Below are positions 4,859 through 14,565 of a stretch of 64,000 bases of DNA, in pieces; positions within the stretch are counted from its first letter, which is position 1, and every line of letters begins with the position of its first letter. This stretch comes from Hyphococcus sp. (GTDB lineage: Bacteria > Pseudomonadota > Alphaproteobacteria > Caulobacterales > Parvularculaceae). Position numbers and translations under genes: made by a program. The notes under the pieces are model-generated. The model saw only the letters and a program-made list of their open reading frames with translations. It made no database searches and had not been told where the DNA came from. The DNA is taken from contig JABDJK010000008.1 of NCBI GenBank assembly GCA_013002535.1, positions 1 through 64,000 on the forward strand, written 5' to 3'.

Positions 4859-4892
4859 GTCCTGCCAGGTCAAGCGCACTTGAAGTCAAGAG
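4859..4892 (-). promoter_or_regulatory. Possible MerR-type operator/promoter
   Basis: The divergent region contains a dyad TCAAG-N4-CTTGA at 4870-4883. On the minus strand it is preceded by a -35-like TTGACT, with the dyad in a 19-base spacer, the architecture of MerR-family promoters, and it would fire toward the small membrane protein gene. The matching -10 (CAGGAC) is poor. The dyad overlaps the assumed TTG start of the regulator, so autoregulation is possible. Confidence 0.35.
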
Positions 4893-12360: not shown

Positions 12361-12993
12361 ATGAACGCCGAGACCGATGCATCATCGGAAAAATCAAAAA
12401 CACCGCTTACGGACATTATCGACGACATCGTCGCTGATGCGCGCGACGGCGCGCTGACCCTTGGCGACATACTCGATGACCTCGGCGACCGGTCTTATGG
12501 ACCGTTGTTTTTTGTGATGGGCCTAATCATCCTAACACCCATCGGCGCTGTTCCGGGCGTGCCGATTATCATTGGCGCCGTGTTGATCATTCTCTCGGCG
12601 CAATTCGTCATCGGCCTGCGCCACCCCTGGATGCCGGCCCGGTTTCGGCGGCTCTCGGTCAGCGTTGAGAAAGCCATCTCAACGCGAGAAAAGGTCCGGC
12701 CGTTCCTGCGGTTTGTCGACCGGTTTGTTGACGAACGACTTTGCTGGGTTGTTTCAAAACCGCTTCGCATCTTTGCCGCCGTCGCAATCGTATTCTTATC
12801 GCTGACGATGATCCCGCTGGAATTCGTTCCGTTTGGGGTCGCCGCGCCCGGCGCAGCGATCACCGCTTTTGGGCTCGCCATTGTCGCGCGCGACGGGCTC
12901 GTCATGCTCATCGCGCACGGATTTGTGGCGGCGACGATCTATCTCGTCACCACGGCCTGGTCGATGTTTATCGCGGCGATCACAGGTAGCTGA
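12361..12993 (+). CDS. ExoD-family membrane protein
   Basis: 210-residue integral membrane protein of the ExoD family, named for a rhizobial exopolysaccharide locus; the biochemical role is unknown. After a polar N-terminus (TLGDILDDLGDRSYGPLFFVMGL is the family signature, residues about 38-60) come four hydrophobic segments, with PTPIGAVPGVP-like loops typical of the family (TPIGAVPGVPII here) and a second LEFVPFGVAAPGAAITAFGLAI repeat. It follows lpd by 70 bases on the same strand and ends 14 bases inside the convergent VOC gene. Confidence 0.82.
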   Translation: MNAETDASSEKSKTPLTDIIDDIVADARDGALTLGDILDDLGDRSYGPLFFVMGLIILTPIGAVPGVPIIIGAVLIILSAQFVIGLRHPWMPARFRRLSVSVEKAISTREKVRPFLRFVDRFVDERLCWVVSKPLRIFAAVAIVFLSLTMIPLEFVPFGVAAPGAAITAFGLAIVARDGLVMLIAHGFVAATIYLVTTAWSMFIAAITGS

Positions 12994-13363
12994 CGACTTC
13001 AATTTCGATATCATCGTCGTCATAGAAATAAAAGCGCCGTCCAGGCTCATAATCGCCGTGGTTAAACGTTTTGTAGCCGGCAGCTTTGATGCGTTCATCC
13101 ATCGCGTCGATGTCATCAACGACAACAGCAATATGATTGAGCCTGCCGACCATTTCGTAACCGCCGGGTTTTTCTTTACTTTCCTTCGTTGAAGAATAAA
13201 GCGCGACGTACTGATCGTCCGTCCCGACATGATAGGTGTAGCCGCCATTTATGGCTTCGCCATGCCAGCGCACTTTCCAGCCGAAGAGTTCGCAGTAAAG
13301 TTTCGCTGATGTTCGGGAATCGCTGACCGTTACATTGACGTGTTCGAGCTTTGCGGATGTCAT
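12980..13363 (-). CDS. VOC-family (glyoxalase/dioxygenase fold) protein
   Basis: 127-residue vicinal-oxygen-chelate protein. The two beta-alpha-beta modules are visible: LEHVNVTVSDSRTSAKLYCELFGW at the N-terminus and GRLNHIAVVVDDIDAMDERIKAAGY in the second half, with FYFYDDDDIEIEVVSY at the end carrying the last metal-ligand Glu position. His8, His near 77 and the C-terminal Glu are plausible metal ligands. The gene is preceded by AGGAGACAGGCG on the minus strand, which is the entire gap to a 58-codon open frame at 13376-13552; that frame lies downstream of a SoxR operator. It is therefore likely to be redox-stress induced. Substrate unknown. Confidence 0.8.
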   Translation of the reverse strand: MTSAKLEHVNVTVSDSRTSAKLYCELFGWKVRWHGEAINGGYTYHVGTDDQYVALYSSTKESKEKPGGYEMVGRLNHIAVVVDDIDAMDERIKAAGYKTFNHGDYEPGRRFYFYDDDDIEIEVVSYL

Positions 13364-13375
13364 CGCCTGTCTCCT

Positions 13376-13552
13376 TTACCAGTTTGCCAAAAAAACAGGC
13401 TTGTCAGCGGCCCTGCCGGAATTTCCTGCGAATTCACCGCCTTCGCGCATACCGTAGCGATCGGACCAGCCGAAATAACCGCCTATTGTAGATTCTGCGG
13501 GCAAGAATGCCTCTCGCTGCAGCCTGCGATATGAAAAAATGACATGAAACAT
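13376..13552 (-). CDS. Small 58-residue protein in SoxR-box operon, unknown function
   Basis: This short open frame was found by reading the minus strand between the VOC gene and soxR. It encodes 58 residues beginning MFHVIFSYRRLQREAF, with a central GGYFGWSDRYGMREGGEF and ending PVFLANW; it is soluble, aromatic- and Arg-rich, with no cysteine or membrane helix. GGAG lies eight bases before the ATG, and the stop codon is followed at once by the AGGAGA that serves the VOC gene, so the two are tightly linked. A SoxR operator with a minus-strand promoter lies 42 bases upstream. I do not recognise the family. The coding call rests on ribosome-site spacing and operon geometry. Confidence 0.6.
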   Translation of the reverse strand: MFHVIFSYRRLQREAFLPAESTIGGYFGWSDRYGMREGGEFAGNSGRAADKPVFLANW

Positions 13553-13587
13553 GGGGTTTTCTCCTTTTCTTGGAATTTCTTGCGCAA

Positions 13588-13621
13588 GCCTACGACCTCA
13601 AGTTAACTTGAGGTCAAGCAT
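13588..13621 (-). promoter_or_regulatory. SoxR operator with minus-strand promoter
   Basis: A perfect 22-base palindrome at 13594-13615 has the core CCTCAAGTTAACTTGAGG, identical to the SoxR box of the E. coli soxS promoter as I recall it. Read on the minus strand it gives -35 TTGACC, a 19-base spacer (the stretched spacing used by SoxR/MerR activators) and -10 TAGGCT, about 35 bases before the ATG of the 58-codon gene. The plus-strand equivalents (ACGACC and AGCATT) are poor, so the activated promoter faces the small gene and VOC gene; SoxR could also repress or control its own gene from here. Confidence 0.88.
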
Positions 13622-13647
13622 TTTTTTAAAAAAATTTGGAGGCGAGA

Positions 13648-14118
13648 ATGGCGAAAAAACTAGAGGTATGGATCGCAATCGGCGATCTCGCAGTGCGAAC
13701 CGGCGTCGCAGTTTCCGCGCTCCGATTTTACGAGGAAAAGGGGTTGATCCATGCGCGGCGCAACGAAGGCGGTCAGCGAAGATTTTTGAAGTCGGACATC
13801 CGCCGCGTATCCTTTATTTTAATTGCGCAGCGCCTCGGGTTTTCACTGGAAGAAATTGGCGCCCAGTTAAACGGCTTGCCCGATGACCGCACGCCTACAA
13901 AAAAGGACTGGCAAAATATCTCGAAAGGATTTCGCAAAGAAATTGACGCGCGCATTAATGCGTTGTCGTTAATGCGCGAAAAACTGACGGGGTGTATCGG
14001 CTGCGGATGTCTGTCGCTCAAAACGTGCGGGCTTTATAATCCAGGCGACGAGGCAGCGGCGAAGGGCGCTGGGCCAAGATATCTGATGGGGGACAAACCG
14101 AAACGGGCAAATTTGTAA
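13648..14118 (+). CDS. soxR: Redox-sensitive transcriptional activator SoxR
   Basis: 156-residue MerR-family sensor with a [2Fe-2S] cluster that activates targets when oxidised by redox-cycling compounds or superoxide. Residues 9-60 form the winged helix (IGDLAVRTGVAVSALRFYEEKGLI); the cluster ligands form the exact SoxR pattern C-X2-C-X-C-X5-C at residues 116, 119, 121 and 127 (TGCIGCGCLSLKTC), followed by the typical LYNPGD tail. ATG at 13648 is chosen because GGAGG lies at 13637-13641; the TTG at 13636 overlaps that site. In most non-enteric bacteria SoxR controls a small local regulon, and here the divergent 58-codon/VOC pair is the obvious target. Confidence 0.95.
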   Translation: MAKKLEVWIAIGDLAVRTGVAVSALRFYEEKGLIHARRNEGGQRRFLKSDIRRVSFILIAQRLGFSLEEIGAQLNGLPDDRTPTKKDWQNISKGFRKEIDARINALSLMREKLTGCIGCGCLSLKTCGLYNPGDEAAAKGAGPRYLMGDKPKRANL

Positions 14119-14142: not shown

Positions 14143-14238
14143 TTGTCATTGCCGGATTTATTCCAGCGATCTACGGCAACCATTTGAAATGCCTTCGCCT
14201 AGCGTCCTGGATTCCCGGAACAAGTCCGGGGATGACAA
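14143..14238. repeat. Dispersed palindromic element, variant 1
   Basis: Two arms, TTGTCATTGCCGGATTTATT at the left and a matching inverted arm ending GGGGATGACAA at the right, enclose about 40 bases. Such GTCAT-CCGGA palindromes recur in intergenic DNA of many alphaproteobacteria, and related elements occur here at 41383 and 53055. No gene is visible in the element. Confidence 0.6.
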
Positions 14239-14298: not shown

Positions 14299-14565
14299 AT
14301 GGATATTGCCATCAATCAGTCTGACCTTGTCGGCCTTGTCGGTGTTTTTTTCGTCGTCGGCACCTATTTCTTGAGCCAGGTCGGGCGGATGAAAGTGGAC
14401 GAACCGCTTTATCCGGCGCTCAACGGCGTCGGCGCGCTCTTTATCCTTTTTTCGCTGGCCTATACGTTCAACACAGCGTCTTTCGTGATCGAAATGTTTT
14501 GGCTTGTGATCTCGATCGTCGGGCTCTTCCGCGCACTCAAAAAAAAGCAATCGGATCCGGAATAA
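14299..14565 (+). CDS. Small membrane protein, CBU_0592-like family
   Basis: 88-residue protein with three hydrophobic stretches (about 10-28, 40-57 and 60-78) and a charged end KKKQSDPE. The pattern DLVGLVGVFFVVGTYFLSQ, then PLYPALNGVGALFILFSL, resembles the uncharacterised CBU_0592-like membrane family. Function unknown. It stands alone between a palindromic repeat and the peptide transporter; ATG at 14299 follows ATCGCCC without a strong Shine-Dalgarno. Confidence 0.65.
   Translation: MDIAINQSDLVGLVGVFFVVGTYFLSQVGRMKVDEPLYPALNGVGALFILFSLAYTFNTASFVIEMFWLVISIVGLFRALKKKQSDPE

Follow-up and report, generated by a model that had tools for sequence, protein, structure and literature searches.

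The locus lies in the window, that is, the whole 64-kb stretch of DNA analysed, which comes from a marine bacterium of the genus Hyphococcus. A SoxR box sits there between a plus-strand soxR gene and a minus-strand pair made up of a small gene and a VOC-fold gene. The features are the following.

12361..12993, plus strand: ExoD-family gene, left edge of the unit (PF06055, 7e-45)
12980..13363, minus strand: VOC-fold gene P0002, 127 codons (PF00903)
13376..13552, minus strand: small gene P0001, 58 codons, ATG start (homologues at the same place, coding test, pN/pS)
13587..13617, minus strand: SoxR-type promoter (TTGACC 13617-13612, 19-nt spacer, TAGGCT 13592-13587)
13594..13615, no strand: SoxR box, perfect 22-base palindrome GACCTCAAGTTAACTTGAGGTC (from the sequence)
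13648..14118, plus strand: soxR (P0003), divergent, ATG start (TIGR01950, CX2CXCX5C motif)
14299..14565, plus strand: P0005, 88 codons, right edge of the unit (adjoins exoD where the unit is absent)

The regulator gene P0003 scores 193.8 bits against TIGR01950, above the family cut-off of 116.9 (E=1.1e-57). It is divergent from the minus-strand pair, as given in the initial annotation. The protein carries, as CIGCGCLSLKTC, the cluster motif CX2CXCX5C of SoxR. The 18-base core of the palindrome (13596-13613) is letter for letter the box between soxS and soxR in E. coli K-12, and this 18-mer has a single match in the window at up to 3 mismatches, with 0.01 expected. The palindrome lies between promoter hexamers spaced 19 nt, as in a SoxR-controlled promoter, and this layout is also present at three homologous loci. 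The perfect 22-base palindrome, its identity to the soxS box and the minus-strand promoter with 19-base spacing, all proposed initially, are thus confirmed by the sequence, the comparison with E. coli and the recurrence of the layout. The promoter is absent from a generic sigma-70 scan, which covers 16-18 nt spacers only. SoxR activates 19-nt-spaced promoters when redox-cycling compounds oxidise its cluster. The E. coli soxR-soxS pair has the same layout, with soxR facing its target, an identical 18-base box and a 19-nt spaced promoter; its target is the regulator SoxS, whereas a small protein and a VOC protein would be the targets here. Reading the palindrome as an intrinsic terminator instead (a stem, then a T-run on the plus strand), as reported by a terminator scan at 13594-13615, is extremely improbable in view of its exact match to the E. 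coli box beside a true soxR, the retention of a TTGA promoter string at 115 of 117 soxR loci and the lack of a T-run in the homologous genome G013.

The 16-base core of the box has one site within 2 mismatches in the whole genome (an assembly of 116 contigs), namely this box with zero mismatches, a result that is weak alone since a reversed control pattern also gives one place. A looser box pattern yields 18 matches versus 8 for its control, which leaves room for weaker SoxR targets; among these matches, only the box of the window is mismatch-free. In the 116 contigs of the assembly, no strong SoxR site was seen besides the promoter of the unit. In the homologous genomes G013 and G015, the second sites fall inside reading frames. 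Elsewhere in the window, at 4869-4889 on the minus strand, the weaker SoxR-box-like sequence TTGACTTCAAGTGCGCTTGAC shows 2 mismatches to the loose pattern and may be a chance occurrence.

The distal gene of the pair, P0002, matches the glyoxalase family PF00903 with E=2.7e-14 (54 bits, gathering score 20.6), and both the Pfam score and the fold place it among VOC proteins. Foldseek matches of its predicted model (pLDDT 81.7) are SMU.1112c, TnmS3 with riboflavin, FosX and glyoxalase I, with E-values of about 1e-7 to 1e-6 and 20-22% identity. FosX, glyoxalase I and the antibiotic-binding proteins TnmS1/TnmS3 are indeed similar to it in fold and length, at about 20% identity. Over the 89 soxR-linked VOC proteins gathered in the surveys described below, H8 and H77 are invariant (89/89), E120 and E122 are found in 88 of 89 (one gap), and N10, W29, R32, W33 and H45 are likewise conserved in 89/89. 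Two histidines and a glutamate are presumably the metal ligands of VOC proteins, which makes H8, H77 and E120/E122 candidates. No NCBIfam cut-off is reached for FosA/FosX or glyoxalase I (best score 31.5 bits versus 165), and thus the substrate cannot be named. The protein may be a metal-binding enzyme, or a binding protein, for redox-active or electrophilic small molecules.

The small gene P0001 is preceded by a Shine-Dalgarno sequence AAGGAG (13566-13561), 8 nt before its ATG. Only 12 nt separate its end from the VOC start, and the AAGGAG of the VOC gene (13376-13371) overlaps its stop codon by one base, in agreement with the 58-codon frame, well-placed Shine-Dalgarno and 12-base gap initially described. 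The same description held the frame to be too short for most gene callers. This does not stand, as 58 codons are not below their usual minimum; that of Prodigal is about 30 codons. The frame may therefore already be annotated as a hypothetical protein.

Homologous frames lie between a SoxR box and a VOC gene, with soxR divergent, in three other genomes of Hyphococcus/'Marinicaulis' type (G013, G015 and G001), where the boxes have 1 or 2 mismatches to the 18-mer. The conserved small frame predicted to occur in relatives is thus present in all three of the other genomes of the genus in which soxR was found. Start, ribosome site and stop keep their positions at 4/4 loci, with a Shine-Dalgarno at the stop in each case, and the gap to the VOC gene is 12 nt in the genome of the window (G000), 14 in G013, 13 in G015 and 14 in G001. 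All four proteins have in common the core GYFGW[ST]DR[YF]G[MI]R, and three of the four a C-terminal F.AN[YW] ending. In a nucleotide-level alignment, the changed codons of frame 0 have a mean BLOSUM score of 0.79 versus -0.39 +/- 0.24 in shuffled columns; none of 2000 column shuffles reaches the frame 0 score and the remaining five frames are negative. The pN/pS ratio is 0.48-0.66 for the whole frame and 0.06-0.26 for the core, the latter range being biased low because the core was picked for being conserved.

These data bear on whether the 58-codon frame could be a chance frame inside a long 5' leader. Its carriers number only four genomes, the proteins are weakly alike outside the core (37-40% identity to P0001 over the full length) and the whole-frame pN/pS is moderate, all of which would suit such a reading. 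Against it stand the coding test, the retention of start, ribosome site and stop and the low pN/pS of the core, so that a chance frame is very improbable and already largely refuted. The comparison of genomes shows the small frame to be a genuine coding gene.

No known family could be assigned to its product. P0001 has no Pfam or NCBIfam family at E up to 1, the four homologues have no PHROGs match at E up to 0.1, and a profile of the four finds nothing in the PDB at E up to 5; the G013 homologue has no match among plasmids and no Pfam family either. No similarity to DUF1127 or another known small-protein family was found in Pfam, NCBIfam and PHROGs, and the predicted fold is of low confidence (pLDDT 52). 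The two-gene unit facing soxR with an undescribed small protein, as initially proposed, therefore holds with respect to Pfam, NCBIfam, PHROGs, the PDB and plasmids. A resemblance between the small-protein block FGWxxRY and the VOC block FGWxxRW, at residues 27-33 in both proteins of the window's genome, was considered as possible mimicry and does not convince: per sequence, between 18 and 128 of 1000 shuffles are as good, as are 754 of 20000 for an 8-mer and 11302 and 9430 of 20000 for two 12-mer versions, and the HH-suite probability is 0.9%.

A search with P0001 in 100 genomes, that of the window included, gave some match in 49 at E up to 1, and below E 0.01 only its own genome, G013, G015 and G001. 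With the profile of the four proteins, for which at most 22 first-look candidates were scored per genome, 299 genomes of the order returned the same four and three marginal matches (G062, G165 and G270), and 289 genomes of the class returned the window's own and one marginal match (G458). The four marginal matches were rejected, with no SoxR box within 4 mismatches at their loci. No relative was confirmed when 84,980 species genomes were first scanned with P0001. A DNA pattern of the core gave 14 matches over the same 84,980 genomes. Three of these are the loci already described, each 0.1-0.2 kb from its box, in two Marinicaulis sp. (placed under Hyphococcus by NCBI) and a Parvularculaceae bacterium. 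Two others (L059 and L060) were discarded, their frames of 1015 and 20 codons being 1.4-1.9 kb away from a 4-mismatch box, and the other nine have no SoxR box. Within the reach of these searches, which are weak for a protein of 58 residues, the small-protein family appears narrow.

The setting of soxR was then compared over the order, where soxR is present in 117 of 299 genomes at the threshold used, the divergent side being taken for all 117. A VOC gene occupies this side in 82 of the 117; in two more genomes (G058 and G250) the lack of one is uninformative, as the contig stops within 280 nt. With VOC starts extrapolated from tblastn, 77 of the 82 VOC genes begin 28-137 nt from the box, the four that follow the small gene 226-238 nt and that of G037 291 nt from it, and only these last five loci have a space of over 200 nt before the VOC gene. 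The soxR-VOC pair is thus the common arrangement in the order. In 77/82 the VOC gene follows the box within 137 nt, which leaves no room for a gene of the size of the small one. The latter is therefore an addition specific to its lineage and no general part of soxR loci, and the VOC protein as a rule does not require it. Across the 117 loci, 0 to 7 bases separate the best box match from the E. coli 18-mer. TTGA adjoins this match at -35 in 115, and 87 combine TTGA with TA at a -10 spaced by 19 nt. In the class sample, soxR was found in 27 of 289 genomes, of which 25 are new and seven of these 25 face a VOC gene.

In a tree of the 89 VOC proteins (82 plus 7), which rests on few columns and has many unresolved forks, the four proteins linked to the small gene form one group (98/84). 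Its nearest neighbours belong to another family (G099, G186, G103 and G150), with the VOC gene 53-55 nt from the box (99/69). This pattern would fit one gain of the small gene in the Hyphococcus lineage.

Other loci show further frames on the divergent side of soxR. In G037 (L035), an exact SoxR box is followed by a 62-codon frame, then by the VOC gene at 291 nt; this frame was rejected as a distant homologue, as 133 of 1000 shuffles score as well, and its VOC protein is not placed beside those of Hyphococcus in the tree, on a weak branch. G549 (L262) is the class-sample locus with the VOC gene at 204 nt and an in-frame N-terminal extension: the VOC frame is open 56 codons further upstream, beginning 42 nt past the box. 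Either an extension fused to the VOC protein takes the position of the small gene here, or the start is set too far upstream. The extension scores 4.8 bits against the small-protein profile, equalled by 5 of 1000 shuffles, and homology is not claimed: the score rests on a 15-column match ending DG-FGW, in one of seven frames tried. In G077 (L080), a 51-codon frame lies under the SoxR box, and its last 39 codons resemble the start of a flavoprotein-like frame of G246 (LAMIRGSVRANRFCD versus LALIYGSAREDRFCD); it is perhaps a decayed reductase gene. Three genomes of a related genus (g2), G028 (L041), G049 (L042) and G059 (L043), have a different small frame under the SoxR box, of 40, 68 and 36 codons respectively, and no VOC gene was found there. 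The frames of G028 and G049 have WW..IGRMG.LGLPWK in common, and only these two genomes match this type of frame below E 0.005 among 249 of the order; the frame of G059 has WWWGLLNLARLGFPPMK, with a hairpin-like stretch right after it.

Within the genus, soxR is found in 4 of 28 genomes and the VOC gene in the same four, as is the small gene. Since 11 of the 28 assemblies are under 90% complete, some absences may be gaps. The unit is bordered on the left by exoD, whose 3' end overlaps the convergent 3' end of the VOC gene, and on the right by P0005, which has no Pfam family and appears membrane-embedded by eye. These two flanks are adjacent, with aligned ends 60-134 nt apart, in nine genomes of the genus without the unit (G023, G014, G004, G025, G022, G005, G009, G008 and G002). 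The comparison covers 13 loci, four with the unit and nine without; the other 15 genomes of the genus have distant ExoD matches only. The soxR, small and VOC genes look like one insertion between exoD and P0005, which both gain and repeated loss would fit. A 29-base palindromic stretch at 14208-14236 was rejected as a repeat: the stretch has a single occurrence in the window, and its 23-base core is found at one place in the genome at up to 2 mismatches.

We favour, with moderate confidence, the reading of this locus as a SoxR-controlled divergent unit in which oxidised SoxR switches on a coupled small protein and a metal-binding VOC protein. SoxR, with its 2Fe-2S cluster, would bind the box between the hexamers spaced 19 nt. 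Its oxidation by redox-active compounds would remodel the promoter and give one mRNA with both genes, whose translation would be coupled, the stop and the VOC Shine-Dalgarno overlapping or touching. The VOC protein would act on, or bind, redox-active or electrophilic small molecules in a metal-dependent manner. The small protein, with its GYFGWTDRYGMR block, would be an accessory specific to the Hyphococcus lineage, acquired there between the promoter and the VOC gene, and would most likely act as a protein together with the VOC protein or in the same response.

The tight junction between the two genes can also be read differently. The gap of 12-14 nt from stop to start and the Shine-Dalgarno at the stop, found at 4/4 loci, would equally suit a frame that is mainly a cis-acting leader, its translation setting that of the VOC gene by coupling or attenuation and the peptide itself having little function. 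In the genome of the window, a hairpin that includes the last codons of the small gene moreover hides the VOC Shine-Dalgarno. Clear in G000, this hairpin is seen only in part in G001 and is weak in the other two genomes, G013 and G015; the four local folds are not significantly more stable than shuffles (z -0.87, 0.82, 0.99, -0.83), nor is the whole leader (z 1.14), and no Rfam family is matched. A structured leader was rejected on these grounds, the hairpin over the VOC ribosome site not being conserved. The best conserved part of the frame is besides a 12-residue protein block in its middle, with synonymous changes, and a mainly cis-acting role looks unlikely, while keeping a real chance of being right.

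The small protein could also be an independent stress peptide that has its own target (a membrane, a regulator or another enzyme) and shares only the promoter with the VOC protein. The small frames of g2, placed under a SoxR box with no VOC gene found, suggest that a small protein may by itself be a target of SoxR. Alphaproteobacterial small stress proteins of the DUF1127 type, of about 50 residues, act through contacts with other proteins, according to the accessible part of the source (PMC12501420). P0001 is of similar size but has no sequence similarity to DUF1127 by Pfam, nor to any other family, and its gene is tightly linked to the VOC gene at 4/4 loci. Independence from the VOC protein is a serious minority reading, which we consider rather improbable on this evidence. 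A broader proposal, which we regard as doubtful and put forward speculatively, is that SoxR promoters repeatedly receive newborn small proteins: the 58-residue protein would have become an obligate partner or modulator of the VOC protein in Hyphococcus, and elsewhere unrelated frames would come first (G037) or replace the VOC gene (G028, G049 and G059). If this is true, the one strong SoxR promoter of the genome has only two products, of which the small protein is one.

In Streptomyces coelicolor, as far as the accessible part of the article goes, the genes under direct activation by SoxR are few and code for oxidoreductases, a monooxygenase, an epimerase/dehydratase and an ABC transporter (PMC4146615). 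As here, there are few direct targets instead of a global regulon; a VOC protein and a conserved small protein are both missing from the targets given in that part (PMC4146615). Among the literature matches listed, which mostly leave subscription papers outside their scope and are accessible in part, no paper describes a unit of soxR, small gene and VOC gene, nor was a soxR-facing VOC protein as the common SoxR target of these bacteria found described. The accessible part of PMC13210998 names soxR and soxS, and no soxR-VOC unit was found in it.

The SoxR divergon as such is already known, and the new part is the small protein without known relatives beyond close kin. A detoxification-type enzyme and a small protein of no assigned role both appear to be under this stress switch. 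SoxR targets outside enteric bacteria reveal how a cell responds to redox-active compounds. At the level of the order, the survey (82 of 117 loci) points to the soxR-facing VOC protein as the common SoxR target of these bacteria. The unit itself offers a new candidate effector of this response, a small protein without known relatives, placed with a VOC protein under one strong predicted SoxR site.
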